Positions 28,101-62,858 of a stretch of 64,000 bases of DNA are shown here, in pieces (position 1 is the first letter of the stretch; the number at the start of each line of letters is the position of its first letter). The notes beneath the pieces were generated by a model. It was not told the DNA's origin, did not search any database, and saw nothing but the letters and a program-made list of their open reading frames with translations. The position numbers and the translations under genes are program-made. The DNA comes from Nemopilema nomurai (lineage: Eukaryota; Cnidaria; Scyphozoa; Rhizostomeae; Rhizostomatidae), in the NCBI GenBank assembly GCA_003864495.1, contig ML133369.1, positions 310,001 through 374,000 on the forward strand, written 5' to 3'.

Positions 28101-31100
28101 GTTTGGAAAGTTAGATAATATGCGAGCACGCCAGGGAATTTATTGTAGATATAAAGTTTTGGTGCTCAATGCTTTATCTGAAAATCATGTACATAAATCT
28201 TGTGAAAATAACATTCCAAGCAAAATGAATTTTCTGAATCATTTTTGTAGCTGGAATATTATTTGCTATTCTTTGTGTTTTAATTGAGAAAGAGCTGACT
28301 GAAAATACCCTCAAATAAGAAAGTCAAGTGACCGTTGTTTTAGATGACGATGAATCATTTTACGATGTGACTGTCGAAGACATACGAATGCGGATTCATT
28401 CCCTGAAAACTGAAGCATCGTGAGTAGACAATCTTGTTGTTCTAAAGATCACAACGTATTTCAGCATCTGATTCCTTTTAGGGCTAAAGAGCCATGACGA
28501 AATCTATTCAAACGGAATTACCCCCGCATATAACCTATAAAACGCTGAAAATGAGTTTTTCAATGCCAACGATTAGCCCGAAAGAAAAAACAATACGTGT
28601 TTCATTATCATGTTTTTCCGTTGTTAATTCAAGTGGCCTGTTGGTCTAGTGGTATGATTCTCGCTTAGGGTGCGAGAGGTCCCGGGTTCAACTCCCGGAC
28701 AGGCCCGTCTTTTCTTCCTGATTTAATTTACTTTTTAGTCGATTTTGAGGATCTGGCTGCAAGAGTGGGCTCCAGAAGTTAAAAGTTACTCTTTTAATAA
28801 TAATCTTTTTTTGATAAATAACCTACATTCAAGTGTGCATTTTTATGCAGAGAATGTATGTAAGGCTATATGATTTTGAGCATTTTTTTAAAAAGGAGAT
28901 CTTAGGATTTAACGAATGAACTTAATGGAGAAAATGGAAATGATTCACAAATGCAAAAATTTTTATGAGGGACGTATTCTAATTAAAACCATTTTTATGC
29001 GAATTATGTTTATTTTTCACAGGGAAGAGACTCCTCTGATGACAAAAAATATGAGGCGGACGAAAGAGATAGAAAAGGCAATGCGATATAAAAAGGTGCT
29101 CATATTATCTTCCTATGCTCCAAATTTCATTGAATAAATCTTAAACCTTTTTATTTAATATCAGAAATATATTAGGTCTTTGGTGGTGGAGATTTTGTAT
29201 CTGAAGTGAGGGTTACTACCTAACTAACGGTTGTGTGATTTGGATTTAATCCGATCTGCCAATTTTTTATTTTGATATCGACCTTTTTGAGAGGCAGATT
29301 TTTTGTATTAACTATTTAAAATTGAAATTTGCTTCGAATAACCTTCACCTTATAACATTAAAATAACCATTGATGAAATTTTCTTAATTCATACAAGCGA
29401 TTAATGCATATTTTATGCATATTGGCAATCTTTCTACAAATTTGAATGTTTTTATTGGATTGCTTTAACAAGCTTGAAGTATCTTAAACCACATGTAACG
29501 TGTAGGTGAATCATTTGCGACCCACGGGCATACCACTGTCTCCCCCTGCTCCTTCAAGAAAGGCATCTGATTTTCGTTATCATTCTAAGTAATTTCTTTT
29601 TAGGTTTACAAATTTTAGTGCGAGATTTGTGAGATTAAAGAACGGCTATTCCAAAGAGCAACTGCAAAAATAACCCTGCTATTAATATCTAAATAATTGA
29701 AGTGATTTTTTATATCTAAGAAAACTATCCAGCTATATGACGTATATCTCTTATAGTCCTCCCCAGTCTACCTCATAGAATACCGGACTCTAGACAGACC
29801 TTCATGTGAAAATAGAGTCACCCCTCTCGCTGTTATTTATCTGTGGAGACGTTTTATGTTTCCATTTTTACAGGTGATTATCAGAATTCAATTCCCGGAC
29901 AAGTTTGTCTTGCAAGGCGTCTTCAGGCCCTTGGAGCCAAGTACGTTGTTGTTTATCGGTATTACTTGCTATTGACACGTCAAGATGTGGTTAGAAGCCA
30001 CAATACTTTCGATTAGCATTTCTTGAAAAGCATTATTGATGGAAAAACCTATACTTTTATAATGGAATATTAATACCCGTTCACAAATTACCACCTCAGG
30101 GTCTGTTTAAATGGAAGTGTGTTGGCCCATCTAAGCGTTTAAATGAACAATTTTGCAGCCTGCCTACGCGGCGTCTCGGGTACTCGAAGACAAGATAGGT
30201 GGACTATAAATTTATCTAGGCTCTTAAACAAGTTGGTTTATGTTCCAAATACGTAGTCAAATCTGAAAAATTTTGTGAGAAAACTATTTAAGATCGCATT
30301 GTGAGTTTGTTATCATTATCAATCTCAGACTAAAGCATGCACCCATTAAACCGGTAGGCCGTTTTTGAAAGAGTTCTGTGATGTTTTGTTGAAGGGGCTT
30401 TCCAATAGCTTCACAAACTGTCTTCGTTGCATAGTCAAAGCTGTCGAAACCATCGAATCATAAAAAGTGGTCATACTAATTGAATGGTCAATTAATCAAA
30501 CACCCATTAAAATTCAAGTAATATAATTTTTTCAGTTAAGCAGTTAGCAGTTTTGTGAAGGAGCATTTACAAGGCAGTGGTCAAAATTTTTACTTGTGTA
30601 AGTTTTTTGAGTAAGCTTATGCTTATTTTTCATCTCTTATTGACCAAATAAAACTGTCTAGAACTCTGCCTTTAGCCGTTAGTATAGGGATATTCTCATT
30701 TATTCTCTAGGGCTGCTTGCTCCTAAGGCATCTATCCTGTAGTTATAATCTAATTATCACCTGAAGTCCCTATCATATCACATTATCAATTAAGTCCCTA
30801 TCTATCACATTATCAATCAAGTTCTATGTTAGACTGCACGTGCTTCTATTACCAAAAACGTTAATTTATTAATTACTCTCCTGTGCTACATGAAATATAT
30901 TGCGTTTTAATTTCTGTTACAGATACTACTCCTCCAAAATGTGAACTCAAAGATGAAAAACAAACAATTTATCAGGTACATTCGGAACAATAGTCGTTGA
31001 CTCACTTTTGACGTGGCCCAAATACCTATGCTATTGTTTTGTTGATTCTGTTGCTGTTAACATTAATAGCAAAGCCAATTTCATAACAAAATTTATTTTC

Positions 31101-34349: not shown

Positions 34350-37300
34350 CTTTCTGCCGGTTTACATTTCCCCGCATCTAGGGAGCTCGACAACATCGAC
34401 AAAGTATCTTTAGAGTGATTTCCACAGAAATCTCATGCTTCGTTATCATTTTTCAATCATCGCCTTTTTCGAAAAAACATAAGGCTATAGCGTTCGAAAA
34501 AGAAGTATTTTTTGACAAAATTTTTTCCTTTTTCATTTTCCCGCATCTAAAGAGCATGAACACATAGACAATGTATGTTTAAAATGATTCCTACAGAAAT
34601 CTCATTCTTAATTATCAATTTTTTAATCATCAGTTTTCGGCGAAAACGTACGGCTATTGCCTTGAAAAAAGAGGCATTTTTGATAAAAGTTTTTCATCGT
34701 TTTTTACACTTTCCCGCATCTACGGAGCTTGCATATATCCACAGAGTATGTTTGAAGTGATTCCCAGAGAAGTTGCATGCTCCGTAATCAATTTTTCAAT
34801 CATCAGTTTTTCGGGAAAAACATAAGGCTATAACCTTGCAAAAACATGCACTTTTGGTAAAAAAAATTTCATCGTTTTTTAGATTTTTCCGCCTATAGGT
34901 GGCTCGAAAACATCAACGACGTATGTTTCAGAAGATTCCCAAAGAAATTTTATGCTCGGTTATCAATTTTTGAATTATCAGTTTTTCGTGTTTTAGACTT
35001 TCCCGTCTATAGGTGGCTCAAAAACATCAACGACGTATGTTTCCAGTGATTCCCAGAGAAGTTGCATGCTCCGTTATCCATTTTTCAATCCTCAATTTTT
35101 TGGGAAAAAAGTAAGGCTATAACCTTGAAAAAACATAAAATTTTTGGTTGAACATTTTCATAGTTTTTTAGACTTTCCTGCATCTAGGGAGCATGAACAC
35201 ATCGTTAGATTATGTTTCAAAAGATTTCCAAAAAAATTCATGCTCGGTTATCATTTTTTGAATCATCAGATTTTCGGGAAAAACGTAAGGCTTTAGCCTT
35301 GGAAAAACATGCACTTTTGACAAAAAATTTTTTATCGTTTTTTAGACTTTTCCGCCTATAGGTGGCTCGAAAACATCAACGACGTGTGTTTCGGTAGATT
35401 CCCAAAGAAATTTCATGCTCAGTTATCATTTTTTGAATCATCAGATTTTCAGGAAAAACGTAAGGCTATAGCCTTGGAAAAACATGCACTTTTGGTAAAA
35501 AAAATTTCATCGTATTTTAGACTTTTCGCCTATAGGTTGCTGGAAAACATCAACGACGTATGTTTCAGAAGATTCCCAAAGAAATTTCATGTTCAGTTAT
35601 CATTTTTTGAATCATCAGATTTTCAGGAAAAACGTAAGGCTATAGCCTTGGAAAAACATGCACTTTTGGTAAAAAAAAATTCATCGTTTATTAGACTTTC
35701 CCGCCTATAGATAAATCAAAAACGTCAACGACATATTATTCAAAAAATTCCCAACACAATTTAATGCTCGGTTAACATTTTTTGAATTATCAGTTTTTTG
35801 AGAAAAACGTAAGGCTATAGCCTTGGAAAAACATGCAATTTTGGTCAACAACTTTTCATCGTGTTTTGGCCTTTTCCGCCTATAAGTGGCTTCACAATAT
35901 CAACGACATATGTTTGAAGTGATTTCCAAAGAAGTTGCATGCTCCCTTATCAATTTTTCAATCATCAGTTTTTCGGGAAAAGTAAGGCTATAACTTTGGA
36001 AAAAGATTAAATTTTTGGCTGTACATTTTCATCGTTTTTTGAACTTTTCTGCATTTAGGAAGCATGAACACATCTTTAGATTATGTTTCAAATGATTTCC
36101 AAAGAAATTTAATGCTCAATTATCATTTTTTAAATCATCAGTTTTTCGGGAAAAACGTAAGGCTATAGCCTTGGAAAAACATGCACTTTTGACAAAATTT
36201 TTTATCGTTTTTTAGACTTTTCCGCCTATAGGTGGCTCAAAAACATCAACGACGTATGTTTCAGAAGATTCCCAAAGAAATTTTATGCTCGGTTATCAAT
36301 TTTTGAATTATCAGTTTTTCGGGAAAAACGTAAGGCTATAGCCTTGGAAAAATATGCACTTTTGGTAAAAAAAATTTCATCGTATTTTAGATTTTTCCGC
36401 CTATAGGTGGCTCGAAAACATCAACGACGTATGTTTCAGAAGATTCCCAAAGAAATTTCATGTTCAGTTATCATTTTTTGAATCATCAGATTTTCAGGAA
36501 AAACGTAAGGCTATAGCCTTGGAAAAACATGCACTTTTGGTAAAAAAAAATTCATCGTTTTTTAGACTTTCCCGCCTATAGATAAATCAAAAACATCAAC
36601 GACGTATGTTTCAGAAGATTCCCAAAGAAATTTCATGCTCAGTTATCATTTTTTGAATCATCAGATTTTCAGGAAAAACGTAAGGCTATAGCCTTGGAAA
36701 AACATGCACTTTTCGTAAAAAAATTTCATCGTATTTTAGACTTTTCGCCTATAGGTTGCTGGAAAACATCAACGACGTATGTTTCAGAAGATTCCCAAAG
36801 AAATTTCATGTTCAGTTATCATTTTTTGAATCATCAGATTTTCAGGAAAAACGTAAGGCTATAGCCTTGGAAAAACATGCACTTTTGGTAAAAAAAAATT
36901 CATCGTTTATTAGACTTTCCCGCCTATAGATAAATCAAAAACGTCAACGACATATTATTCAAAAAATTCCCAACACAATTTAATGCTCGGTTAACATTTT
37001 TTGAATTATCAGTTTTTTGAGAAAAACGTAAGGCTATAGCCTTGGAAAAACATGCAATTTTGGTCAACAACTTTTCATCGTGTTTTGGCCTTTTCCGCCT
37101 ATAAGTGGCTTCACAATATCAACGACATATGTTTGAAGTGATTTCCAAAGAAGTTGCATGCTCCCTTATCAATTTTTCAATCATCAGTTTTTCGGGAAAA
37201 GTAAGGCTATAACTTTGGAAAAAGATTAAATTTTTGGCTGTACATTTTCATCGTTTTTGAACTTTTCTGCATTTAGGAAATGAACACATTTAGATTATGT

Positions 37301-40300
37301 TTCAAATGATTTCCAAAGAAATTTAATGCTCAATTATCATTTTTTAAATCATCAGTTTTTCGGGAAAAACGTAAGGCTATAGCCTTGGAAAAACATGCAC
37401 TTTTGACAAAATTTTTTATCGTTTTTTAGACTTTTCCGCCTATAGGTGGCTCAAAAACATCAACGACGTATGTTTCAGAAGATTCCCAAAGAAATTTTAT
37501 GCTCGGTTATCAATTTTTGAATTATCAGTTTTTCGGGAAAAACGTAAGGCTATAGCCTTGGAAAAATATGCACTTTTGGTAAAAAAAATTTCATCGTATT
37601 TTAGATTTTTCCGCCTATAGGTGGCTCGAAAACATCAACGACGTATGTTTCAGAAGATTCCCAAAGAAATTTCATGTTCAGTATCATTTTTTGAATCATC
37701 AGATTTTCAGGAAAAACGTAAGGCTATAGCCTTGGAAAAACATGCACTTTTGGTAAAAAAAATTCATCGTTTTTTAGACTTTCCCGCCTATAGATAAATC
37801 AAAAACATCAACGACGTATGTTTCAGAAGATTCCCAAAGAAATTTCATGCTCAGTTATCATTTTTTGAATCATCAGATTTTCAGGAAAAACGTAAGGCTA
37901 TAGCCTTGGAAAAACATGCACTTTTCGTAAAAAAAATTTCATCGTATTTTAGACTTTTCGCCTATAGGTTGCTGGAAAACATCAACGACGTATGTTTCAG
38001 AAGATTCCCAAAGAAATTTCATGTTCAGTTATCATTTTTTGAATCATCAGATTTTCAGGAAAAACGTAAGGCTATAGCCTTGGAAAAACATGCACTTTTG
38101 GTAAAAAAAAATTCATCGTTTTTTAGACTTTCCCGCCTATAGATAAATCAAAAACATCAACGACATATTATTCAAAAAATTCCCAACACAATTTAATGCT
38201 CGGTTAACATTTTTTGAATTATCAGTTTTTTGAGAAAAACCTAAGGCTATAGCCTTGGAAAAACATGCAATTTTGGTCAACAACTTTTCATCGTGTTTTG
38301 GCCTTTTCCGCCTATAAGTGGCTTCACAATATCAACGACATATGTTTGAAGTGATTTCCAAAGAAGTTGCATGCTCCCTTATCAATTTTTCAAGCATCAG
38401 TTTTTCGGGAAAAGTAAGGCTATAACTTTGGAAAAAGATTAAATTTTTGGCTGTACATTTTCATCGTTTTTTGAACTTTTCTGCATTTAGGAAGCATGAA
38501 CACATCTTTAGATTATGTTTCAAATGATTTCCAAAGAAATTTAATGCTCAATTATCATTTTTTAAATCATCAGTTTATAGGGAAAAACGTAAGGCTATAG
38601 CCTTGGAAAAACATGCACTTTTGACAAAATTTTTTATCGTTTTTTAGACTTTTCCGCCTATAGGTGGCTCAAAAACATCAACGACGTATGTTTCAGAAGA
38701 TTCCCAAAGAAATTTTATGCTCGGTTATCAATTTTTGAATTATCAGTTTTTCGGAAAAAACGTAAGGCTATAGCCTTGGAAAAATATGCACTTTTGGTAA
38801 AAAAAATTTCATCGTATTTTAGATTTTTCCGCCTATAGGTGGCTCGAAAACATCAACGACGTATGTTTCAGAAGATTCCCAAAGAAATTTCATGTTCAGT
38901 TATCATTTTTTGAATCATCAGATTTTCAGGAAAAACGTAAGGCTAAAGCCTTGGAAAAACATGCACTTTTGGTAAAAAAAAATTCATCTTTTTTTAGACT
39001 TTCCCGCCTATAGATATATCAAAAACATCAACGACATATTATTCAAAAAATTCCCAACACTATTTAATGCTCGGTTAACATTTTTTGAATTATCAGTTTT
39101 TTGAGAAAAACGTAAGGCTATAGCCTTGGAAAAACATGCAATTTTGGTCAACAACTTTTCATCGTGTTTTGGCCTTTTCCGCCTATAAGTGGCTTCACAA
39201 TATCAACGACATATGTTTGAAGTGATTTCCAAAGAAGTTGCATGCTCCCTTATCAATTTTTCAATCATCAGTTTTTCGGGAAAAGTAAGGCTATAACTTT
39301 GGAAAAAGATTAAATTTTTGGCTGTACATTTTCATCGTTTTTTGAACTTTTCTGCATTTAGGAAGCATGAACACATCTTTAGATTATGTTTCAAATGATT
39401 TCCAAAGAAATTTAATGCTTAATTATCATTTTTTAAATCATCAGTTTTTCGGGAAAAACGTAAGGCTATAGCCTTGGAAAAACATGCACTTTTTGACAAA
39501 ATTTTTTATCGTTTTTTAGACTTTTCCGCCTATAGGTGGCTCGAAAACATCAACGACGTATGTTTCAGAAGATTCCCAAAGAAATTTTATGCTCGGTTAT
39601 CATTTTTTGAATTATCAGTTTTTCGGGAAAAACGTAAGGCTATAGCCTTGGAAAAATATGCACTTTTGGTAAAAAACATTTCATCGTATTTTAGACTTTT
39701 CCGCCTATAGGTGTTTCGAAAACATCAATGACATTTGTTTCAGAAGATTCCCAACATAATTTAATGCTCGGTTAACATTTTTTGAATCATCAGTTTTTTG
39801 AGAAAAACGTAAGACTATAGCCTTGGAAAAACATGCAATTTTGGTCAACAACTTTTCATCGTGTTTTGGCCTTTTCCGCCTATAAGTGGCTTCACAATAT
39901 CAACGACATATGTTTGAAGTGATTTCCAAAGAAGTTGCATGCTCCCTTATCAATTTTTCAATCATCAGTTTTTCGGGAAAAGTAAGGCTATAACTTTGGA
40001 AAAAGATTAAATTTTTGGCTGTACATTTTCATCGTTTTTTGAACTTTTCTGCATTTAGGAAGCATGAACACATCTTTAGATTATGTTTAAAATGATTTCC
40101 AAAGAAATTTAATGCTCCCTTATCAATTTTTCAATCATCAGTTTTTCGGGAAAAGTAAGGCTATAGCCTTGCAAAAACATGCACTTTTGATATAAAAATT
40201 TTTATCGTTTTTTAATGTTTTCCGCCTATAGGTGGCTCGAAAACATCAACGACGTATGTTTCAGAAGATTCCCAAAGAAATTTTATGCTCGGTTATCATT

Positions 40301-43300
40301 TTTTGAATTATCAGTTTTTCGGGAAAAACGTAAGGCTATATCCTTGGAAAAATATGCACTTTTGGTAAAAAAAATTTCATCGTATTTTAGATTTTTCCGC
40401 CTATAGGTGGCTCGAAAACATCAACGACGTATGTTTCAGATGATTCCCAAAGAAATTTCATGTTCAGTTATCATTTTTTGAATCATCAGATTTTCAGGAA
40501 AAACGTAAGGCTATAGCCTTGGAAAAACATGCACTTTTGGTAAAAAAAAATTCATCGTTTTTTAGACTTTCCCGCCTATAGATAAATCAAAAACATCAAC
40601 GACATATTATTCAAAAAATTCCCAACACAATTTAATGCTCGGTTAACATTTTTTGAATTATCAGTTTTTTGAGAAAAACGTAAGGCTATAGCCTTGAAAA
40701 ACATGCAATTTTGGTCAACAACTTTTCATCGTGTTTTGGCCTTTTCCGCCTATAATTGGCTTCACAATATCAACGACATATGTTTGAAGTGATTTCCAAA
40801 GAAGTTGCATGCTCCCTTATCAATTTTTCAATCATCAGTTTTTCGGGAAAAGTAAGGCTATAACTTTGGAAAAAGATTAAATTTTTGGCTGTACATTTTC
40901 ATCGTTTTTTGAACTTTTCTGCATTTAGGAAGCATGAACACATCTTTAGATTATGTTTCAAATGATTTCCAAAGAAATTTAATGCTCCCTTATCAATTTT
41001 TCAATCATCAGTTTTTCGGGAAAAGTAAGGCTATAGCCTTGCAAAAACATGCACTTTTGGTAAAAAAATTTTTATCGTTTTTTAATGTTTTCCGCCTATA
41101 GGTGGCTCGAAAACATCAACGACGTATGTTTCAGAAGATTCCCAAAGAAATTTTATGCTCGGTTATCATTTTTTGAATTATCAGTTTTTCGGGAAAAACG
41201 TAAGGCTATATCCTTGGAAAAATATGCACTTTTGGTAAAAAAAATTTCATCGTATTTTAGATTTTTCCGCCTATAGGTGGCTCGAAAACATCAACGACGT
41301 ATGTTTCAGAAGATTCCCAAAGAAATTTCATGTTCAGTTATCATTTTTTGAATCATCAGATTTTCAGGAAAAACGTAAGGCTATAGCCTTGGAAAAACAT
41401 GCACTTTTGGTAAAAAAAAATTCATCGTTTTTAGACTTTCCCGCCTATAGATAAATCAAAAACATCAACGACATATTATTCAAAAAATTCCCAACACAAT
41501 TTAATGCTCGGTTAACATTTTTGAATTATCAGTTTTTTGAGAAAACGTAAGGCTATAGCCTTGGAAAAACATGCAATTTTGGTCAAAACTTTTCATCGTG
41601 TTTTGGCCTTTTCCGCCTATAAGTGGCTTCACAATATCAACGACATATGTTTGAAGTGATTTCCAAAGAAGTTGCATGCTCCCTTATCAATTTTTCAAGC
41701 ATCAGTTTTTCGGGAAAAGTAAGGCTATAACTTTGGAAAAAGATTAAATTTTTGGCTGTACATTTCATCGTTTTTTGAACTTTTCTGCATTTAGGAAGCA
41801 TGAACACATCTTTAGATTATGTTTCAAATGATTTCCAAAGAAATTTAATGCTCAATTATCATTTTTTAAATCATCAGTTTTTCGGGAAAAACGTAAGGCT
41901 ATAGCCTTGGAAAAACATGCACTTTTGACAAAATTTTTTATCGTTTTTTAGACTTTTCCGCCTATAGGTGGCTCAAAAACATCAACGACGTATGTTTCAG
42001 AAGATTCCCAAAGAAATTTTATGCTCGGTTATCAATTTTTGAATTATCAGTTTTTCGGGAAAAACGTAAGGCTATAGCCTTGGAAAAATATGCACTTTTG
42101 GTAAAAAAAATTTCATCGTATTTTAGATTTTTCCGCCTATAGGTGGCTCGAAAACATCAACGACGTATGTTTCAGAAGATTCCCAAAGAAATTTCATGTT
42201 CAGTTATCATTTTTTGAATCATCAGATTTTCAGGAAAAACGTAAGGCTATAGCCTTGGAAAAACATGCACTTTTGGTAAAAAAAAGTTCATCGTTTTTTA
42301 GACTTTCCCGCCTATAGATAAATCAAAAACATCAACGACATATTATTCAAAAAATTCCCAACACTATTTAATGCTCGGTTAACATTTTTTGAATTATCAG
42401 TTTTTTGAGAAAAACGTAAGGCTATAGCCTTGGAAAAACATGCAATTTTGGTCAACAACTTTTCATCGTGTTTTGGCCTTTTCCGCCTATAATTGGCTTC
42501 ACAATATCAACGACATATGTTTGAAGTGATTTCCAAAGAAGTTGCATGCTCCCTTATCAATTTTTCAATCATCAGTTTTTCGGGAAAAGTAAGGCTATAA
42601 CTTTGGAAAAAGATTAAATTTTTGGCTGTACATTTTCATCGTTTTTTGAACTTTTCTGCATTTAGGAAGCATGAACACATCTTTAGATTATGTTTCAAAT
42701 GATTTCCAAAGAAATTTAATGCTCCCTTATCAATTTTTCAATCATCAGTTTTTCGGGAAAAGTAAGGCTATAGCCTTGCAAAAACATGCACTTTTGGTAA
42801 AAAAATTTTTATCGTTTTTTAATGTTTTCCGCCTATAGGTGGCTCGAAAACATCAACGACGTATGTTTCAGAAGATTCCCAAAGAAATTTTATGCTCGGT
42901 TATCATTTTTTGAATTATCAGTTTTTCGGGAAAAACGTAAGGCTATATCCTTGGAAAAATATGCACTTTTGGTAAAAAAAAATTTCATCGTATTTTAGAT
43001 TTTTCCGCCTATAGGTGGCTCGAAAACATCAACGACGTATGTTTCAGAAGATTCCCAAAGAAATTTCATGTTCAGTTATCATTTTTTGAATCATCAGATT
43101 TTCAGGAAAAACGTAAGGCTATAGCCTTGGAAAAACATGCACTTTTGGTAAAAAAAAATTCATCGTTTTTAGACTTTCCCGCCTATAGATAAATCAAAAA
43201 CATCAACGACATATTATTCAAAAAATTCCCAACACAATTTAATGCTCGGTTAACATTTTTTGAATTATCAGTTTTTTGAGAAAAACGTAAGGCTATAGCC

Positions 43301-46300
43301 TTGGAAAAACATGCAATTTTGGTCAACAACTTTTCATCGTGTTTTGGCCTTTTCCGCCTATAAGTGGCTTCACAATATCAACGACATATGTTTGAAGTGA
43401 TTTCCAAAGAAGTTGCATGCTCCCTTATCAATTTTTCAAGCATCAGTTTTTCGGGAAAAGTAAGGCTATAACTTTGGAAAAAGATTAAATTTTTGGCTGT
43501 ACATTTTCATCGTTTTTTGAACTTTTCTGCATTTAGGAAGCATGAACACATCTTTAGATTATGTTTCAAATGATTTCCAAAGAAATTTAATGCTCAATTA
43601 TCATTTTTTAAATCATCAGTTTTTCGGGAAAAACGTAAGGCTATAGCCTTGGAAAAACATGCACTTTTGACAAAATTTTTTATCGTTTTTTAGACTTTTC
43701 CGCCTATAGGTGGCTCAAAAACATCAACGACGTATGTTTCAGAAGATTCCCAAAGAAATTTTATGCTCGGTTATCAATTTTTGAATTATCAGTTTTTCGG
43801 GAAAAACGTAAGGCTATAGCCTTGGAAAAATATGCACTTTTGGTAAAAAAAATTTCATCGTATTTTAGATTTTTCCGCCTATAGGTGGCTCGAAAACATC
43901 AACGACGTATGTTTCAGAGGATTCCCAAAGAAATTTCATGTTCAGTTATCATTTTTTGAATCATCAGATTTTCAGGAAAAACGTAAGGCTATAGCCTTGG
44001 AAAAACATGCACTTTTGGTAAAAAAAAATTCATCGTTTTTTAGACTTTCCCGCCTATAGATAAATCAAAAACATCAACGACATATTATTCAAAAAATTCC
44101 CAACACTATTTAATGCTCGGTTAACATTTTTTGAATTATAAGTTTTTCGGGAAAAACGTAAGGCTATAGCCTTGGAAAAATATGCACTTTTGGTAAAAAA
44201 ATTTCATCAGATTTTAGAATTTTCCGCCTATAGGTAGTTCGAAAACATCAACGACATTTGTTTGAAGTGATTTCCAGAGAAGTTGCATGCTCCCTTATCA
44301 ATTTTTCAATCATCAGTTTTTCGGGAAAAGTAAGGCTATAACCTTGGAAAAAGATGAAATTTTTGGTTGTACATTTTCATCGTTTTTTGAACTCTTCTGC
44401 ATTTAGGAAGCATGAACACATCTTTAGATTATGTTTCAAATGATTTCGAAAGAAATTTAATGCTCAATTATCATTTTTTGAATCATCAGATTTTCGGGAA
44501 AACGTAAGGCTATAGCCTTGCAAAAACATGCACTTTTGGTAAAAAAAATTTGATCGTTTTTTAGACTTTCCCGCCTAAAGATGGATCAAAAACATCAACG
44601 ACATATGTTTCAAAAAATTCCCAACATAATTTAATGCTCGGTTAACATTTTTTGAATCATCAGTTTTTTGAGAAAAAAAAAGGCTATAGCCTTGGAAAAA
44701 TATGCACTTTTGGTAAAAAAATTTCATCAGATTTTAGAATTTTCCGCCTATAGGTAGTTCGAAAACATCAACGACATATGTTTGAAGTGATTTCCAAAGA
44801 AGTTGCATGCTCCCTTATCAATTTTTCAATCATCAGTTTTTCGGGAAAAGTAAGGCTATAACTTTGGAAAAAGATTAAATTTTTGGCTGTACATTTTCAT
44901 CGTTTTTTGAACTTTTCTGCATTTAGGAAGCATGGACACATCTTTAGATTATGTTTCAAATGATTTCCAAAGAAATTTAATGCTCCCTTATCAATTTTTC
45001 AATCATCAGTTTTTTGGGAAAAGTAAGGCTATAGCCTTGGAAAAATATGCACTTTTGGTAAAAAAAATTTCATCGTATTTTAGATTTTTCCGCCTATAGG
45101 TGGCTCGAAAACATCAACGACGTATGTTTCAGAAGAGTCCCAAAGAAATTTCATGCTCAGTTATCATTTTTTGAATCATCAGATTTTCAGGAAAAACGTA
45201 AGGCTATAGCCTTGGAAAAACATGCACTTTTGGTAAAAAAAAATTCATCGTTTTTTAGACTTTCCCGCCTAAAGATAAATCAAAAACATCAACGACATAT
45301 GTTTCAAAAAATTCTCAACACAATTTAATGCTCGGTTAACATTTTTTGAATTATAAGTTTTTCGGGAAAAACGTAAGGCTATAGCCTTGGAAAAATATGC
45401 ACTTTTGGTAAAAAAATTTCATCAGATTTTAGAATTTACCGCCTATAGGTAGTTCGAAAACATCAACGACATTTGTTTGAAGTGATTTCCAGAGAAGTTG
45501 CATGCTCCCTTATCAATTTTTCAATCATCAGTTTTTCGGGAAAAGTAAGGCTATAACCTTGGAAAAAGATGAAATTTTTGGTTGTACATTTTCATCGTTT
45601 TTTGAACTCTTCTGCATTTAGGAAGCATGAACACATCTTTAGATTATGTTTCAAATGATTTCCAAAGAAATTTAATGCTCCCTTATCAATTTTTCAATCA
45701 TCAGTTTTTCGGGAAAAGTAAGGCTATAGCCTTGCAAAAACATGCACTTTTGGTAAAAAATTTTTTATCGTTTTTTAATGTTTTCCGCCTATAGGTGGCT
45801 CGAAAACATCAACGACGTATGTTTCAGAAGATTCCCAAAGAAATTTTATGCTCGGTTATCAATTTTTGAATATCAGTTTTTCGGGAAAAAACGTAAGGCT
45901 ATAGCCTTGGAAAAATATGCACTTTTTGGTAAAAAAATTTCATCGTATTTTAGACTTTTCCGCCTATAGGTGGTTCGAAAACATCAATGACATTTGTTTC
46001 AGAAGATTCCCAACATAATTTAATGCTCGGTTAACATTTTTTGAATCATCAGTTTTTTGAGAAAAACGTAAGGCTATAGCCTTGGAAAAACATGCAATTT
46101 TGGTCAACAACTTTTCATCGTGTTTTGGCCTTTTCCGCCTATAAGTGGCTTCACAATATCAACGACATATGTTTGAAGTGATTTCCAAAGAAGTTGCATG
46201 CTCCTTATCAATTTTTCAAGCATCAGTTTTTCGGGAAAAGTAAGGCTATAACTTTGGAAAAAGATTAAATTTTTGGCTGTACATTTTCATCGTTTTTTGA

Positions 46301-49300
46301 ACTTTTCTGCATTTAGGAAGCATGAACACATCTTTAGATTATGTTTCAAATGATTTCCAAAGAAATTTAATGCTCAATTATCATTTTTTAAATCATCAGT
46401 TTTTCGGGAAAAACGTAAGGCTATAGCCTTGGAAAAACATGCACTTTTGACAAAAATTTTTTATCGTTTTTAGACTTTTCCGCCTATAGGTGGCTCGAAA
46501 ACATCAACGACGTATGTTTCAGAAGATTCCCAAAGAAATTTTATGCTCGGTTATCATTTTTTGAATTATAAGTTTTTCGGGAAAACGTAAGGCTATAGCC
46601 TTGGAAAAATAACTTTGGTAAAAAAATTTCATCAGATTTTAGAATTTTCCGCCTATAGGTAGTTCGAAAACAAACGATTTGTTTGAAGTGATTTCCAGAG
46701 AAGTTGCATGCTCCCTTATCAATTTTTCAATCATCAGTTTTTCGGGAAAAGTAAGGCTATAACCTTGGAAAAAGATGAAATTTTTGGTTGTACATTTTCA
46801 TCGTTTTTTGAACTCTTCTGCATTTAGGAAGCAATCTTTAGATTATGTTTCAATGATTTCCTAAGAAATTTAATGCTCCCTTATCAATTTTTCAATCATC
46901 AGTTTTTCGGGAAAAGTAAGGCTATAGCCTTGCAAAAACATGCACTTTTGGTAAAAATTTTTTATCGTTTTTAATGTGGGTGAACATCAACGACGTATGT
47001 TTCAGAAGATTCCCAAGAAATTTTATGCTCGGTTATCATTTTTTGAATTATCAGTTTTTCGGGAAAAACGTAAGGCTATAGCCTTGGAAAAATATGCACT
47101 TTTGGTAAAAAACATTTCATCGTATTTTAGACTTTTCCGCCTATAGGTGGCTCGAAAACATCAACGACGTATGTTTCAGAAGATTCCCAAAGAAATTTTA
47201 TGCTCGGTTATCATTTTTTGAATTATCAGTTTTTCGGGAAAAACGTAAGGCTATAGCCTTGGAAAAATATGCACTTTTGGTAAAAAACATTTCATCGTAT
47301 TTTAGATTTTTCCGCCTATAGGTGGCTCGAAAACATCAACGACGTATGTTTCAGAAGAGTCCCAAAGAAATTTCATGCTCAGTTATCATTTTTTGAATCA
47401 TCAGATTTTCAGGAAAAACGTAAGGCTATAGCCTTGGAAAAACATGCACTTTTGGTAAAAAAAATTCATCGTTTTTTTAGACTTTCCGGCCTAAAGATAA
47501 TCAAAACACATCAACGACATATGTTTCAAAAAATTCTCACACAATTTAATGCTCGGTTAACATTTTTTGAATTATAAGTTTTTCGGGAAAAACGTAAGGC
47601 TATAGCCTTGGAAAAATATGCACTTTTGGTAAAAAAATTTCATCAGATTTTAGAATTTTCCGCCTATAGGTAGTTCGAAAACATCAACGACATTTGTTTG
47701 AAGTGATTTCCAGAGAAGTTGCATGCTCCCTTATCAATTTTTCAATCATCAGTTTTTCGGGAAAAGTAAGGCTATAACCTTGGAAAAAGATGAAATTTTT
47801 GGTTGTACATTTTCATCGTTTTTTGAACTCTTCTGCATTTAGGAAGCATGAACACATCTTTAGATTATGTTTCAAATGATTTCCAAAGAAATTTAATGCT
47901 CCCTTATCAATTTTTCAATCATCAGTTTTCGGGAAAAGTAAGGCTATAGCCTTGCAAAAACATGCACTTTTGGTAAAAAATTTTTTATCGTTTTTTAATG
48001 TTTTCCGCCTATAGGTGGCTCGAAAACATCAACGACGTATGTTTCAGAAGATTCCCAAAGAAATTTTATGCTCGGTTATCATTTTTTGAATTATCAGTTT
48101 TTCGGGAAAAACGTAAGGCTATAGCCTTGGAAAAATATGCACTTTTGGTAAAAAACATTTCATCGTATTTTAGACTTTTCCGCCTATAGGTGGTTCGAAA
48201 ACATCAATGACATTTGTTTCAGAAGATTCCCAACATAATTTAATAATCGGTTAACATTTTTTGAATCATCAGTTTTTTGAGAAAAACGTAAGGCTATAGC
48301 CTTGGAAAAACATGCAATTTTGGTCAACAACTTTTCATCGTGTTTTGGCCTTTTCCGCCTATAAGTGGCTTCACAATATCAACGACATATGTTTGAAGTG
48401 ATTTCCAAAGAAGTTGCATGCTCCCTTATCAATTTTTCAATCATCAGTTTTTCGGGAAAAGTAAGGCTATAACTTTGGAAAAAGATTAAATTTTTGGCTC
48501 TACATTTTCATCGTTTTTTGAACTTTTCTGCATTTAGGAAGCATGAACACATCTTTAGATTATGTTTCAAATGATTTCCAAAGAAATTTAATGCTCCCTT
48601 ATCAATTTTTCAATCATCAGTTTTTCGGGAAAAGTAAGGCTATAGCCTTGCAAAAACATGCACTTTTGGTAAAAAAATTTGTATCGTTTTTTAATGTTTT
48701 CCGCCTATAGGTGGCTCGAAAACATCAACGACGTATGTTTCAGAAGATTCCTAAAGAAATTTTATGCTCGGTTATCATTTTTTGAATTATCAGTTTTTCG
48801 GGAAAAACGTAAGGCTATAGCCTTGGAAAAATATGCACTTTTGGTAAAAAAAATTTCATCGTATTTCAGACTTTTCCGCCTATAGGTGGTTCGAAAACAT
48901 CAATGACATTTGTTTCAGAAGATTCCCAACATAATTTAATGCTCGGTTAACATTTTTTGAATCATCAGTTTTTTGAGAAAAACGTAAGGCTATAGCCTTG
49001 GAAAAACATGCAATTTTGGTCAACAACTTTTCATCGTGTTTTGGCCTTTTCCGCCAATAAGTGGCTTCACAATATCAACGACATATGTTTGAAGTGATTT
49101 CCAAAGAAGTTGCATGCTCCCTTATCAATTTTTCAATCATCAGTTTTTCGGGAAAAGTAAGGCTATAACTTTGGAAAAAGATTAAATTTTTGGCTGTACA
49201 TTTTCATCGTTTTTTGAACTTTTCAGCATTTAGGAAGCATGAACACATCTTTCGATTATGTTTCAAATGATTTCCAAAGAAATTTAACGCTCCCTTATCA

Positions 49301-52300
49301 ATTTTTCAATCATCAGTTTTTCGGGAAAAGTAAGGCTATAGCCTTGGAAAAATATTCACTTTTGGTAAAAAAAATTTCATCGTATTTTAGACTTTTCCGC
49401 CTATAGGTGGTTCGAAAACATCAATGACATTTGTTTCAGAAGATTCCCAAAGAAATTTTAAGCTCGGTTACCAATTTTTGAATCATCATTTTTTGTGGAA
49501 AAACGTTAGGCTATAGCCTTTGAAAAACATGCACTTTTGACAAAAACTTTTTTATCGTTTTTTAGACTTTTCCGCCTATAGGTGGCTCGAAAACATCAAC
49601 GACGTATGTTCTAAAAGATTCCCAAAAAAATTTTATTCTTGGTTATCAATTTTTGAATTATCAGTTTTTTGAGAAAAACATAAGGCTATAGCCTTGGAAA
49701 AACATGCATTTTTGATCAAGAACTTTTCATCGTGTTTTGGTTATTTCCGCCTATAAGTGGCTTCTCAATATCAACGACATATGTTTGAAGTGATTTCAAG
49801 AGAAGTTGCATGCTCCCTTATCAATTTTTCAATCATCAGTTTTTCGGGAAAAGTAAGGCTATAACTTTGGAAAAAGATTAAATTTTTGGTTGTACATTTT
49901 CATCGTTTTTTGAACTTTTCTGCATTTAGGAAGCATGAACACATCTTTAGATTATGTTTCAAATGATTTCCAAAGAAATTTAATGCTCAATTATCATTTT
50001 TTGAATCATCAGATTTTTGGAAAAACGTAAGGCTATAGCCTTGCAAAAACATGCACTTTTGGTAAAAATTTTTTTATCGTTTTTTAATGTTTTCCGCCTA
50101 TAGGTGGCTCGAAAACATCAACGACGTATGTTTCAGAAGATTCCCAAAGAAATTTTATGCTCGGTTATCATTTTTTGAATTATCAGTTTTTCGGGAAAAA
50201 CGTAAGGATATATCCTTGGAAAAATATGCACTTTTGGTAAAAAAAATTTCATCGTATTTTAGATTTTTCCGCCTATAGGTGGCTCGAAAACATCAACGAC
50301 GTATGTTTCAGAAGATTCCCAAAGAAATTTCATGCTCCGTTATCATTTTTTGAATCATCAGATTTTCTGGAAAAACGTAAGGCTATAGCCTTGGAAAAAG
50401 TTTCACTTTTGACAAAAAATTTTTCTATCGTTTTTTAATGTTTTCCGCCTATAGGTGGCTCGAAAACATCAACGACGTATGTTTCAGAAGATTCCCAAAG
50501 AAATTTTATGCTCGGTTATCAATTTTTGAATTATCAGTTTTTCGGGAAAAACGCAAGGCTATAGCCTTGGAAAAACATGCACTTTTGACGAAAAGATTTC
50601 TATCGTTTTTTAGACTTTTCCGCCTATAGGTGGCTCGAAAACATAAACGACGTATGTTCTCAAAGAGTCCCAAAGAAATTTTATTCTCGGTTATCAATTT
50701 TTGAATTATCAGTTTTTTGAGAAAAACATAAGGCTATAGCCTTGGAAAAACATGCATTTTTGATCAAGAACTTTTCATCGTGTTTTGGATATTTCCGCCT
50801 ATAAGTAGCTTCTCAATATCAACGACATATGTTTGAAGTGATTTCAAGAGAAGTTGCATGCTCCCTTATCAATTTTTCAATCATCAGTTTTTCGGGAAAA
50901 GTAAGGCTATAACTTTGGAAAAAGATTAATATTTTGGTTGTACATTTTCATCGTTTTTTGAACTTTTCTGCATTTAGGAAGCATGAACACATCTTTAGAT
51001 TATGTTTCAAATGATTTCAAAAGAAATTTTATGCTCATTTATCATTTTTTGAATCATCAGATATTCGGAAAAACGTAAGGCTATAGCCTTGCAAAATCAT
51101 GCACTTTTGGTAAAAAAATTTTCATCGTATTTTAGACTTTTCGCCTATAGGTTGCTGGAAAACATCAACGACGTATGTTTCAGAAGATTCCCAAAGAAAT
51201 TTCATGCTCAGTTATCATTTTTTGAATCATCAGATTTTCAGGAAAAACGTAAGGCTATAGCCTTGGAAAAACATGCACTTTTGGTTAAAAAATAATTCAT
51301 CGTTTTTTAGACTTTCCCGCCTAAAGATAAATCAAAAACATCAACGACATATGTTTCAAAAAATTCTCAACACAATTTAATGCTCGGTTAACATTTTTTG
51401 AATTATCAGTTTTTCGGGAAAAACGTAAGGCTATAGCCTTGGAAAAACATGCACTTTTGACAAAATTTTTTAATCGTTTTTTAGACTTTTCCGCCTATAG
51501 GTGGCTCGAAAACATCAACGACGTATGTTCTAAAGGATTTCCAAAGAAATTTTATTCTCGGTTATCAATTTTTGAATTATCAGTTTTTTTGAGAAAAACG
51601 TAAGGTTATAGCCTTGGAAAAACATGCATTTTTGATCAAGAACTTTTCATCGTGTTTTGTACTTTTCCGCCTATAGGTGGCTCGAAAACATCAATGACGT
51701 ATTTTTTAAAAGATTCCCAAAGAAATTTTATGCTCGGTTATCAATTTTTGAATTATCAGTTATTCGGGAAAAACGTAAGGCTATAGCCTTGGAAAAAGTT
51801 TCACTTTTGACAAAAAATTTTTTATCGTTTATAATGTTTTCCGCCTATAGGTGGCTCGAAAACATCAACGACGTATGTTTCAGAAGATTCCCAAAGAAAT
51901 TTTATGCTCGGTTATCAATTTTTGAATTATCAGTTTTTCGGGAAAAACGCAAGGCTATAGCCTTGGAAAAACATGCACTTTTGACGAAAAAATTTCTATC
52001 GTTTTTTAGACTTTTCCGCCTATAGGTGGCTCGAAAACATCAACGACGTATGTTCTCAAAGAGTCCCAAAGAAATTTTATTCTCGGTTATCAATTTTTGA
52101 ATTATCAGTTTTTTGAGAAAAACATAAGGCTATAGCCTTGGAAAAACTTGCATTGCCAGAGAAGTTGCATGCTCCGTTATCCATTTTTCAATCATAAATT
52201 TTTCGGGAAAACGTAAGGCTTTAATCTTGGAAAAACATACAATTTTTTGTTCAACATTTTTATTGTTTTTTACACTTTCCTGCATCTAGGGAGCATGAAC

Positions 52301-52720
52301 ACATGGTTAGATTATGTTTCAAAAAATTACCAAAGCAATTTTATGCTTGGTTATCAATTTTTCAATCATTAGTTTTTTTGGAAAAACGTAATGGTATAGC
52401 CCTGGAAAAACAAGCATTTTTGGTAAAAAAATTTTCTTGGTTTTTAAACTTTCCAGCCTATAGGTGGCATAAAAACATCAACGACGTTTGCTTTAAAAGA
52501 TTCCCAAAGAAATTTCATGCTCGGTTATCAATGTTTCAATTACCAGTTTTTTGGGAATAATGTACGGCTATAACCTTTGAAAAACATGCATTTTTGGTAA
52601 ACCTTTTTCATCGTTTTTCACACTTTTGTCACACATCTAGGAAGCATAAACAAGTCGACAATTTATGTTTGAAATGATTCCCAGAGAAGTTCATGCTCTG
52701 TTGTCAAATTTTCGATTATA
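34350..52720. repeat. 18-kb satellite array of about 175-bp monomers with higher-order repeats
   Basis: Monomers are counted from a CCGCCTATAGGTGGCTCGAA-like start; starts at 35354, 35529, 35704 and 35879 are 175 bp apart. At least four sub-types are visible: CCTATAGGTGGCTC, CCTATAGATAAATC, CCTATAAGTGGCTTCAC and GCATTTAGGAAGCATGAAC. They recur in fixed order, giving higher-order units. The CCTATAAGTGGCTTCAC type and its CCTATAATTGGC variant lie at about 35879, 37098, 38311, 39180, 39878, 40749, 41616, 42485 and 43358, so spacings are multiples of the monomer (7, 7, 5, 4, 5, 5, 5, 5). The first and last 1 kb hold more diverged monomers. The array has about 105 monomers. Open frames of about 63 codons recur simply because the monomer does, and I do not call them genes. 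Confidence 0.97.
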
Positions 52721-52998: not shown

Positions 52999-53940
52999 CT
53001 AGAAACTATGATTTGACTTTATTTCCTCCCTCCATTTCGCTCTGTTGTAAACGCATGCGTCATAAAATGCAAAAATCAGGCATATATCAGTCCATCCATT
53101 ACTGTTCTTAGAAATGCACGAGAAATGCTCATTCGGAGAAAGAAAAGCCTGTTCAAGCTCTGAAGAGATGTCACCTCTCTTTTGCAAAGAGTACAGCAAG
53201 AAAAGAATTGAAAGTCCAGTCAACATTAGAAGAATAATCAAATTAAGAACTATCAGCTGAAATGTCAGTCTTGCTGATCCAATGTTGCAATACAGGTTGA
53301 TGCGCGCCTCAAGAGGTCCATCTTTTAAAATAGCTTTGTAGGCAATATTTCTTGATGTCCATAGGTCGGACCATTTTGAAAAAGGAAGAAATAATAAAAA
53401 GGAAGTTGATGACACGAAAACAATAGCAAAGCACTTGAAAAAATATATGGTGCATACCAGGCTATGATCTTCAAATAAGAACTTCCACTTGGCGTATGCC
53501 TGTTCCATCCAATCGGAGTGTGTTTTGTTGGTCAAGGTACATTTTGCCCTGCCGCATTCTCGAAGTAGTTTGTTCAACGCGACGAGCTTCGTTTTGACGC
53601 ATGGGAGGCCGTACCAAAACATCTGACAGAAGAACAATATGATCCACTGGAAAAAGACCAGAGATGGAAAACGCACCAGATAGCCACTGAATTCCTCCAG
53701 GGCACATTTCTCAGAAAAGTACTTTGCATACAGTGTGCTCCAGAATGTTTGGTTGACCGGTATCGCCGCCATACAGGCAACTCCAAATGTCGTCTCTTGT
53801 AACACGAATCTCCATGAAACTAAGACGATCATGAAAAGACAGTGGATAAGGTAGTCGATGACATATTCCCACCACGGCTTGAATCTTTTTGTTGTGCCTT
53901 TCTGCGATAAATACGCGACTGCCTCGCCAACGCTGAGCAT
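52999..53940 (-). CDS. Short LRRC8/pannexin-like four-pass membrane protein (313 aa), no LRR or OTU
   Basis: A single open frame from ATG at 53940 to TAG. The N-terminus has the LRRC8-type motif RFKPWWEYVIDY just before the first membrane segment (about residues 30-48). Further segments lie near 88-108, 162-186 and 228-252. Extracellular Cys residues (for example C56 and C79 in loop 1, C218 in loop 2) fit the paired-cysteine pattern of the LRRC8/pannexin fold. LRRC8 proteins form hexameric volume-regulated anion channels in the plasma membrane. Here the cytoplasmic loop is short and the protein stops about 60 residues after the fourth segment, so there is no LRR domain and no OTU-like domain. 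It is a paralogue of the gene at 59779, divergently oriented. A 5' non-coding exon is possible. It could be a functional short channel subunit or a gene whose C-terminal part was lost; satellite begins about 280 bp past the stop. Confidence 0.8.
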   Translation of the reverse strand: MLSVGEAVAYLSQKGTTKRFKPWWEYVIDYLIHCLFMIVLVSWRFVLQETTFGVACMAAIPVNQTFWSTLYAKYFSEKCALEEFSGYLVRFPSLVFFQWIILFFCQMFWYGLPCVKTKLVALNKLLRECGRAKCTLTNKTHSDWMEQAYAKWKFLFEDHSLVCTIYFFKCFAIVFVSSTSFLLFLPFSKWSDLWTSRNIAYKAILKDGPLEARINLYCNIGSARLTFQLIVLNLIILLMLTGLSILFLLYSLQKRGDISSELEQAFLSPNEHFSCISKNSNGWTDICLIFAFYDACVYNRAKWREEIKSNHSF

Positions 53941-59778: not shown

Positions 59779-61563
59779 ATGATATCTTTGAGCGACGCAC
59801 AGAAGTTTTCAGAAGAGAGTCCAGCAATAAAAAGCTTCAAACCATGGTGGGAAATTTTGATAGATCACATGCTCCTGGCTATTTTACTGATTTGCTTGCT
59901 AGCCTGGGCACGAGTGACGTCATCAGAGTCGTCCGGTCTTGTATGTGTGCCACTTGACACCAACATAACGTATGGCTACACCGAGTTTCGCTACGCCAAT
60001 TCACGCTGTTCGCAGGAGATCGCAACAAAGCTTATCATCTATTACCCATATTTACTGTTATTTCAGTGGATTGTCTCTTTCTTGGTGCAGAGAACCTGGC
60101 TCAAAGTCCCTGTCGTTTTGACAAAGCTGGACGCGTTCCACAACATATTTTGTCAGATGTGTTCTGTCACACCGACGTTCAAGCGAAACAAGCGCAGCTT
60201 TCAGATGCTGCCGGAACTCACGTATGAAGGTGAAAACTTCGACCAAGTAAAAGTTCTCCACGATAAGCTGATGTTCTTGCTTACAGAGATGAGTTACTTG
60301 TTAAGGATTTATCGCGCAAAGGTCTTTATTCTTTTGGCTTTAAGCTTTCTCTTTGCAACGGGCATGGTGATATGGCTATATGAAATATACATACCCAAGG
60401 CCGACATCAAATGTCACTTAGAGGGAGATGAAAGAGCCCACGAATTCAAAAGCCTAATCTGCAATTTCTCGTCAGCATTTTTTCTATACAGCGCCATGTG
60501 TCTAAACCTCATTATGCTTTGTTTGATAATCGTTTTCAGCTCCTACGGCCTATACTGGTCTTTCAAACAGAAATCATTTGCCGAGCACACTGGCATTTTT
60601 GGTCAAATGATCGACTTATACACAGGGCTGCCCGGTTTCAACGACTTGCAATTCTGCATGTCGCTCGTCAGAAGCAATGTCCGTGACGGAAACCTGATGT
60701 TCGAGACGATCAAATCGTGTCTCCGGCTGCAGGCCTACCAACTGGACGAGAAAAACATCACCATGGTAAAAGCCGAGCGAGCACGTGACTTCAGACAGGA
60801 ACACGACATCGTCAAACTGATAGCTCAGCAGCTTGGTCTTCAGCTGATTAGCAACAGTCAAGACCCGAGCCACCTCTTTGGCTGCCTCGACTACATACGA
60901 AGCTGCCTAAGCCAGGTTGAACTGGAGGTCTCTTCGGAGCTGAGAGACCGGTTGGCCGACGAAATACAACGGAACCCGTTGCACTTCAAATCAACGATTG
61001 ATAATGATGCGAAGGAGGGCACCTATGATCAGGTGATCGAGGACATGCGCCTGCCGTCGGTCTTCGGAAGCCAGTACGCAGTGGCTGCGGCTGCCAATGT
61101 TTTCAAAGTGCGCATCGTGGTCATACACTGTCAAAGCACAAGCGAGTACCGCGAGGTTTACGAGCCGTTCGCCAGCAACCAGTCACGTGGCACGTTCTTT
61201 CTTGCCTTCACCGGGAAACACTACTACCATGCTACTAAGAAGATACACAAGACAGATGACGAGTTCGAGACGTTCGTCCAAGCGAGGGTGAGATTCGCGC
61301 AAGACGACAAGTACCGAAACTCGATTCGGCAGTCAGCCTCGAGATCGGTCGAGCGCAGCGAGGAGGGCGAATCAACCCACGAAATAATAGCGGCAATAGC
61401 TGAATCGAGGAGCCGCGAAATGGCATCTGAGATCTCTCCGAAAGCATTGGACTCTGAGCAGGATCGCATCATCGAGAGTACTGATAATGGAATCAACCTT
61501 CTGCAAAGGTACAGACGAAAGTTTTGGCAGTCAAAAGACGAGAAACTTAATTTTGTGGTGTAA
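59779..61563 (+). CDS. LRRC8/pannexin-like channel domain fused to an OTU-like (probably inactive) domain, 594 aa
   Basis: A single-exon frame; the ATG at 59779 gives an N-terminus aligned with LRRC8 proteins (SFKPWWEILIDH at residues 19-30). Membrane segments lie near residues 30-48, 87-104, 181-203 and 235-259, with Cys56, Cys77, Cys212 and Cys228 on the predicted outside. The stretch after segment 4 (about 260-325) still resembles the LRRC8 linker, but no leucine-rich repeats follow. Residues about 343-486 instead resemble an OTU-family cysteine protease: LGLQLISNSQDPSHLF, LRDRLADEIQRNPLHF, FGSQYAVAAAANVFKVRIVV and FLAFTGKHYYHA. The catalytic DGNCLF motif reads DPSHLF (362-367), so the nucleophile position is His365; His481 is kept but the residue two after it is Tyr. 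The domain is therefore probably a binding pseudo-enzyme. The last 100 residues are charged and likely disordered. The channel part should sit in the plasma membrane with the OTU-like part in the cytosol. Confidence 0.85.
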   Translation: MISLSDAQKFSEESPAIKSFKPWWEILIDHMLLAILLICLLAWARVTSSESSGLVCVPLDTNITYGYTEFRYANSRCSQEIATKLIIYYPYLLLFQWIVSFLVQRTWLKVPVVLTKLDAFHNIFCQMCSVTPTFKRNKRSFQMLPELTYEGENFDQVKVLHDKLMFLLTEMSYLLRIYRAKVFILLALSFLFATGMVIWLYEIYIPKADIKCHLEGDERAHEFKSLICNFSSAFFLYSAMCLNLIMLCLIIVFSSYGLYWSFKQKSFAEHTGIFGQMIDLYTGLPGFNDLQFCMSLVRSNVRDGNLMFETIKSCLRLQAYQLDEKNITMVKAERARDFRQEHDIVKLIAQQLGLQLISNSQDPSHLFGCLDYIRSCLSQVELEVSSELRDRLADEIQRNPLHFKSTIDNDAKEGTYDQVIEDMRLPSVFGSQYAVAAAANVFKVRIVVIHCQSTSEYREVYEPFASNQSRGTFFLAFTGKHYYHATKKIHKTDDEFETFVQARVRFAQDDKYRNSIRQSASRSVERSEEGESTHEIIAAIAESRSREMASEISPKALDSEQDRIIESTDNGINLLQRYRRKFWQSKDEKLNFVV

Positions 61564-62858
61564 GTAACGTGTGAAGTGTTTGGTTTAACGCCTTTTTCGA
61601 AACGTCGGCTTCTCTTTCTCATGCCTCTTAACAAATTGTCACCTTCTCGAAAACTTGAACTCCAGTGCCTGTTGATTCTATCTAACCAGAAAGCAAAACT
61701 TAAAATATGACACTAAAATTAAATAATCAGGAACAGAAAGAAACGCAACTATACACAACGAAGCAACTGCAATTCATTCAAACTTTCTAATATCTACAGA
61801 ATTTTATGCATTATCATAACTTAACTACTAAAATACTTTTAAATAGAGGGTGTGTTGGGGGTTTTTGTGTTTCAAAACACAATCTTCAAGTATACATGAA
61901 AGATATGTATGAGTGATGAACAAGGGGGTCTAATATTATGATACTCCAATGCTGCAAAACTGCAGTATTATGATACTCCAATACTGCAATATCATGATAC
62001 TAATGCTCCAATACTGCAATATCATGATACTCCAATACTATAATACTGCAATATCATGATACTCCAATGCTCCAATACTGCAATATCATGATACTCCAAT
62101 GCTCCAGTACTGCAATATCATGATACTCCAATGCTCCAATACTGCAATATCATGATACTCCAATGCTCCAGTACTGCAATATCATGATACTCCAATACTA
62201 TAATACTACAATATTATGTTACCCCGCCAATCCATTATTATAACATAGCCGAATATAACGAGGCTAGATCATTTTCGTTCAAAGGCAACTGAATCAAGCC
62301 AAGGAATACCGCACAACACTAGGAGGAGGAACTATATAATTATTCGGAACAGTGAAAACTATACATAGGCATACATTTCACTTGTCCCTGTAAATATGGT
62401 TCTAATTAATAAATAGCTACATTTCTGACCTCGAAGCATGCAGGTTTTGTTTTCACTTAAGGTATTAACGCTGTGGGGCAAATTTATTATAGAAATAAAA
62501 GTCGGTGTTCTTACTTTAAGAGTCGAAAATGGCAACCAAAACATAGAGGTGCCTAATGTCGAGCAATTGTGTAACGAGAGTTCTGCAATGTATCCAGGCT
62601 AGCCTTTCAACACGATAAAGAGGCTTAGACACACCGAAATAGGCCTACATATACTTAATGTTTATGGCTATAACACGAATACGTACCATTCTAATTCCTT
62701 TGTCTGGTTTAAAAGTTTAAATTATTACTATATCCGCCAAACATCTGCTACCTAATCCATAAAATCTACATAAAATTTACAATACTATCTATCACAATTT
62801 ACCTTAAAAAGAGCATCAAAGCATACTCGATGTTAAGAGAGCTACTACAATAGTTGTC
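61564..62858. other. Gene-free stretch with a 32-bp minisatellite
   Basis: It should include the 3' untranslated region of the LRRC8-OTU gene and that of the opposing caspase-like gene. Apart from the minisatellite at about 61930-62215 I see no feature. Confidence 0.5.
61930..62215. repeat. 32-bp tandem minisatellite
   Basis: A 32-bp unit built from ATCATGATACTCCAATGCTC and CAATACTGCAAT. TATCATGATAC recurs at a regular 31-32 bp step from about 61990 to 62181. Variants alternate GCTCCAATACTG with GCTCCAGTACTG, and the edges are degenerate. It contains the short palindrome ATCATGAT. Confidence 0.9.

Follow-up and report, generated by a model that had tools for sequence, protein, structure and literature searches.

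How the vertebrate volume-regulated anion channel (VRAC) senses the state of the cell is an open question, and the layer of leucine-rich repeats (LRRs) is one suspected site of its control. In the vertebrate subunit LRRC8A, as described in PMC6086657, the LRR layer is joined to the pore through an intracellular linker domain, and the pore is narrowest at a ring of R103, found at the tip of an extracellular helix that belongs to the first extracellular loop. Depending on the binder, engagement of the cytoplasmic LRRs either inhibits or enhances LRRC8A currents, and fluorescent proteins fused to the C-terminus raise activity (PMC9130832); the gate can therefore be tuned by a C-terminal module attached to the linker. 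LRRC8-like genes have been reported in Nematostella in a review citing Abascal and Zardoya 2012 (PMC9399500). These non-chordate genes possibly belong to the family described below.

On the side of the OTU fold, the closest described systems are inactive deubiquitinases. OTULINL (FAM105A) is an OTU pseudo-deubiquitinase with the triad Asp/His/His, placed at the membrane by a membrane-localisation motif; according to PMC7862380, it lacks ubiquitin interaction and is thought to mediate protein interactions. Drosophila CG3251 and Otu are inactive homologues of OTUD4, and CG3251 is stated to have no significant binding to ubiquitin chains (data not shown in that source), although the source names non-cleaving binding as a likely function of inactive deubiquitinases (PMC4654579). 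Among the matches listed from the open-licence PMC literature, there is no description of a fusion between an LRRC8-type channel and an OTU domain, in agreement with an earlier note on this DNA whose author knew of no channel of such architecture.

The window, a 64,000-nucleotide stretch (contig C5:310001-374000 of a 213-Mb assembly), contains a gene, probably of animal origin, in which an LRRC8-type channel domain is fused to an OTU-like domain (Table 1). The earlier note had read it as one uninterrupted frame, and the frame indeed runs from ATG to stop without a break. Its stop-free run, 602 aa in length, exceeds all others in the window; the next two measure 335 aa, which is a channel-only paralogue, and 162 aa. 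The coding frame has a GC content of 0.48 (0.60 at third positions), and the upstream flank is lower, at 0.38. Against Pfam-A (E up to 1), the encoded protein, P0001, matches two families, Pannexin_like and OTU, both above the curated cut-off. No LRR family was matched in P0001 in this search, and the OTU domain stands in their place, just where the earlier note had set it. Nor was an LRR family matched in the second exon of a further paralogue on contig C70 or in the frame of the short, channel-only paralogue (Pfam, E up to 0.1), these being the frames scanned from the three Pannexin_like genes found.

Table 1 Features of the LRRC8-OTU gene and its paralogues (positions in the window unless another contig is named).
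Feature	Position	Strand	Evidence or remark
Whole LRRC8-OTU coding frame (P0001)	59779..61563	+	594 codons plus stop; ORF, Pfam and homologues
Pannexin_like / LRRC8-type four-pass domain, residues 1-267	59779..60579	+	Pfam PF12534, phmmer against LRRC8 PDB chains, hydropathy
FKPWWE motif, residues 20-25, directly before TM1	59836..59853	+	Aligned with LKPWWD of LRRC8C
Cytoplasmic linker after TM4, residues 268-335	60580..60783	+	Identity among family rows
Putative pseudo-OTU domain, residues 336-490	60784..61248	+	Pfam match at 385-472
His365, likely OTU catalytic-Cys slot	60871..60873	+	D-P-S-H-L-F (362-367) for canonical D-G-N-C-L-F
HYYHAT, residues 481-486, OTU His-loop region	61219..61236	+	Family alignment
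Tail, residues 491-594	61249..61560	+	Less conserved than the rest except ~503-540; ends in V
Channel-only paralogue, 313-aa Pannexin_like frame	52999..53940	-	6 kb from the LRRC8-OTU gene, opposite strand
Second LRRC8-OTU gene, L015 (G000:C70:99500-107500)	~101802-106151	-	TM2 to OTU-like end in one exon

The channel half is recognised by three lines of evidence, which together bear out the four-pass LRRC8-type domain proposed from the first inspection. The Pannexin_like family (PF12534) scores 45.5 bits against a cut-off of 25 (E 7.1e-12), most strongly over residues 1-61 and 68-129. In a phmmer search of the PDB, the closest solved proteins are chains of LRRC8C, A and D, the best with E 7.4e-9 and aligned at residues 3-59 and 68-129, and a profile of the family returns 25 PDB matches, every one an LRRC8 and none an OTU chain. 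Hydropathy reveals membrane-like stretches at residues ~26-44, 85-103, 182-200 and 234-252, for which a low-confidence AlphaFold model also predicts helices; a fifth hydrophobic stretch (res. 433-451), inside the OTU core, is barely above the threshold (1.47 versus 1.4). The FKPWWE motif picked out in the earlier note is present, and its residues F20, P22, W23, W24 and E25 are at least 90% conserved among family rows. The ectodomain cysteines 56, 77, 212 and 228 are kept in every row that covers them.

P0001 thus resembles the vertebrate VRAC subunits LRRC8A-E in its Pannexin_like N-terminal region, the xKPWW motif before TM1, four TM-like stretches, conserved ectodomain cysteines, and a C-terminal module behind a TM4 linker. 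It differs from them in having an OTU-like domain and no LRR match, and in a first extracellular loop that is ~40 residues shorter (8 residues versus 48 in LRRC8C between aligned stretches). Because this shortening falls in the region of R103, the anion selectivity of LRRC8 cannot be transferred to P0001. The post-TM4 linker, which the earlier note had counted as part of the LRRC8-like domain, is conserved among close relatives, but its sequence does not identify it as LRRC8: searched by themselves, residues 150-340 match neither a PDB chain (E up to 10) nor Pannexin_like, and the likeness of the linker to LRRC8 is thus one of position rather than of score.

The HMM search that the earlier note had proposed for the OTU half returned a match of 33.7 bits (cut-off 23.3, E 5.8e-8), and residues 331-529 by themselves match OTU with E 1.3e-8. 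Searched against the PDB, the OTU piece gave nothing at E up to 10. The AlphaFold model of P0001 is poor (mean pLDDT 57, pTM 0.42; block means of 37-72 across the OTU domain), and NCBIfam, run on three family members, gave one weak, unrelated match. A search for the nearest OTU donor in the same genome was unproductive: the pseudo-OTU profile was compared with seven loci, of which six surround other OTU matches (with an overlap between two of these) and the seventh surrounds the channel-only paralogue, and none passed the inclusion threshold (best E 0.028).

Relatives of P0001 were sought among ~5.8 billion proteins, restricted to candidates of similar length sharing short words with it (E up to 0.01). 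The search found 13, and a profile search returned the identical 13. Nine of them (P0002-P0010) align with P0001 along the whole of both halves, at 50-85% identity, as does the remote P0014 at 26-28%; P0011 is without its N-terminus, P0012 (408 aa) stops inside the OTU domain, and P0013 (361 aa) stops before it. The fusion, for which the earlier note had suggested looking elsewhere, is not confined to P0001: other database proteins have it, and so does a second gene in this genome. Pfam (E up to 0.1) detects Pannexin_like in 13 of the 14 members including P0001 and OTU in 11 of the 14, where seven OTU scores lie above the cut-off, four below it, and three members have no match. Precomputed Pfam tags already place both families in 5 of the 13 relatives; the architecture is therefore on record as data, even if it is not discussed. 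Since database relatives have the same architecture, the LRRC8-OTU protein is probably a real, little-described kind of channel subunit.

Conservation is distributed unevenly along the chain. In P0002-P0009 and P0011, identity to P0001 amounts to 69-89% in the channel, 66-91% in the linker, 61-87% in the OTU domain, and 34-67% in the tail, and the corresponding values for P0010 are 57, 64, 50 and 24%. They fall to 34, 37, 40 and 14% in the C70 exon and to 32, 21, 27 and 12% in P0014, whose linker is below both domains. Conservation of the OTU domain comes close to that of the channel and exceeds that of the tail, a sign that selection may maintain it even if it is catalytically dead. Pfam finds no OTU domain in P0014 or in the second exon of the C70 paralogue, so its presence there rests on alignment to the family. 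Trees built separately for each half (13 rows each) both pair P0001 with P0002 and group P0003-P0007 with P0011 (support 92/95 and 93/98). A further pairing, of P0010 with the C70 paralogue (88/78), is seen in the OTU tree and left open in the channel tree; long branches of unsure placement lead to P0014 and to the C70 paralogue.

Within the genome, an exon-by-exon search that scored the best candidates only placed Pannexin_like in three genes: the P0001 gene, the short paralogue and the C70 gene. The C70 gene has an intron in the first extracellular loop (junction CAG/GTACGA ... CTCAG/ATC, picked among 10 in-frame junctions for consensus sites and fit), giving a product of 572 aa. Its second exon is open from before TM2 to the end and is 36% identical to P0001 over residues 68-527, with no Pfam family matched at E up to 0.1. 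No intron is seen between the channel and OTU halves in either the P0001 or the C70 gene. The frame of the short paralogue has no OTU match by Pfam, and P0015 (320 aa) is a 67% relative of it; this paralogue is a possible partner subunit for the LRRC8-OTU protein.

OTU domains carry their catalytic Cys at the start of a helix. In the weak model of P0001, a predicted helix (res. 364-376) begins beside His365, the residue at the likely catalytic-Cys slot. Over the 14 aligned members and the C70 exon, a set of 15 rows from which P0013 was left out because it ends at the slot column without an OTU domain, the slot holds His in 13 of 14, including the C70 gene, Asp in one (P0014), and Cys in none. 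The Asp at the front of the slot motif is not universal, being Asn in P0009. The three other OTU fragments of the genome that cover the motif (L008, L009 and L011) all have Cys (SDGNCLL, NCLFRA and GDGRCL). In the His-loop region, column 481 is H, Y or R, whereas 483 is Y and 484 is H in 13 of 13 rows; the true His column is unsure because the Pfam alignments of P0005 and P0006 extend past the residue matching 484.

The OTU half could nonetheless be an active protease working through another residue, such as the nearly invariant Cys369 (12 of 13 rows) with His484, whose register is subject to the same uncertainty. We regard this as very unlikely. The catalytic Cys of the genome's normal OTUs occupies profile position 6, and a gap-free extrapolation of the P0001 Pfam alignment brings His365 to position 7 and Cys369 to position 11; moreover, Cys369 lies inside the predicted helix, at low confidence, and is Ala in P0014. 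When the family is aligned by forced global hhalign with four canonical OTU fragments, which start at the Cys motif, SHLF falls on NCLF and H365 on the catalytic Cys (probability 3%, E 0.0045). In the local alignment, which is confined to the helix region behind the motif, the score reaches 18.3 against a maximum of 17.5 in 100 column shuffles (probability 7%). With its likely slot devoid of Cys in each OTU-bearing member, the OTU half looks like a non-catalytic pseudo-deubiquitinase. It resembles OTULINL, a membrane-located OTU protein with a broken triad, and P0014 has the same Cys-to-Asp change, but OTULINL is described with a membrane-localisation motif rather than a channel (PMC7862380). 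CG3251 and Otu likewise retain an OTU domain that has lost its catalytic Cys, in their case to Ser, not His, and the passages of PMC4654579 that deal with them mention no channel part. Separately, His365 (12 of 13 rows), Cys369 (60883-60885; 12 of 13) and His484 (61228-61230; 13 of 13) are kept in a domain not expected to act as a normal protease, and it is conceivable that they form a reused site, for instance for a metal or ligand.

Our preferred explanation, held with moderate confidence, is that the protein is an LRRC8-type large-pore subunit whose LRR layer has been replaced by a ring of catalytically dead OTU domains that changes the gate via the post-TM4 linker. It builds on the fusion, its conservation and the lack of Cys at the likely catalytic slot, all of them read from sequence. 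Subunits would assemble around the pore as in LRRC8, the OTU units would sit below it as a non-proteolytic, protein-binding or self-associating ring, and this ring would alter the gate through the linker, as LRR binders do in vertebrate LRRC8A. We count in favour of this ring two Pfam matches in one frame, the recurrent fusion, the conserved ectodomain cysteines and the pseudo-OTUs known elsewhere; we count against it the short loop in the R103 region, the endings of P0012 and P0013, the poor structure model, the missing Pfam OTU match in P0014 and the C70 exon, and the weakly conserved linker of P0014. The truncated P0012 and P0013, which do not contain a whole OTU domain, are also what an assembly or gene-model artefact could produce. 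Such an origin is extremely improbable and was rejected, since the raw frame is uninterrupted, the same order occurs in P0002-P0010 from separate database entries, and the second gene, on another contig, has both parts in one open frame.

The OTU half might instead serve solely as an anchor for assembly or trafficking, for example through C-terminal PDZ partners, with no effect on gating. The C-terminal residue is V or I in 12 of 13 rows (P0012 and P0013 not among them), with D or E third from last in 7 of these 12, and we take such tails to resemble a PDZ ligand. OTULINL, a membrane-located pseudo-OTU thought to mediate protein interactions (PMC7862380), would also fit this reading. We consider it doubtful: conservation of the linker between close relatives hints at a coupling with the pore, and the C-terminus of the C70 paralogue is RK. 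It is improbable, too, that the pseudo-OTU acts as a non-cleaving receptor for ubiquitin or a ubiquitin-like protein, with ubiquitination of a partner or of the channel itself gating or sorting the channel. The OTU core is conserved, and such a role is the one named for inactive deubiquitinases in PMC4654579, but the same source reports no significant chain binding by CG3251, and OTULINL is described without ubiquitin interaction (PMC7862380). Because these dead OTUs do not detectably bind ubiquitin, and the catalytic Cys is missing here, the ubiquitin sensing put forward in the earlier note is not supported as stated; the other option it raised, an unusual mode of assembling or gating the pore, is the more plausible guess.

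A natural LRRC8-type protein with another fold in place of the LRRs amounts to a ready-made domain-swap experiment, one that would separate the gating steps that need LRRs from those of the pore and linker. With the LRRC8-OTU protein, a channel would join the settings in which dead deubiquitinases are known. A bolder version, in which a pseudo-OTU ring reads a ubiquitin or ubiquitin-like mark and thereby opens or closes the LRRC8-type pore, strikes us as quite unlikely. If true, it would make the LRRC8 cytoplasmic layer a swappable sensor, for which LRRs are merely the vertebrate choice and OTU the choice, perhaps older, of some other animals.

The surroundings of the gene also contain repeats. 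Beside the channel-only paralogue, a tandem array at 34361-52601 comprises ~100 copies of a 174-175-bp unit over ~18 kb, with 75-78% matches; it is also called with a 348-bp period, and open frames persist in some units. A 32-bp tandem repeat of 9.4 copies (61932-62222) begins ~370 bases past the LRRC8-OTU stop codon, and ARAGORN predicts a tRNA-Pro (agg) at 28635-28706 on the + strand.
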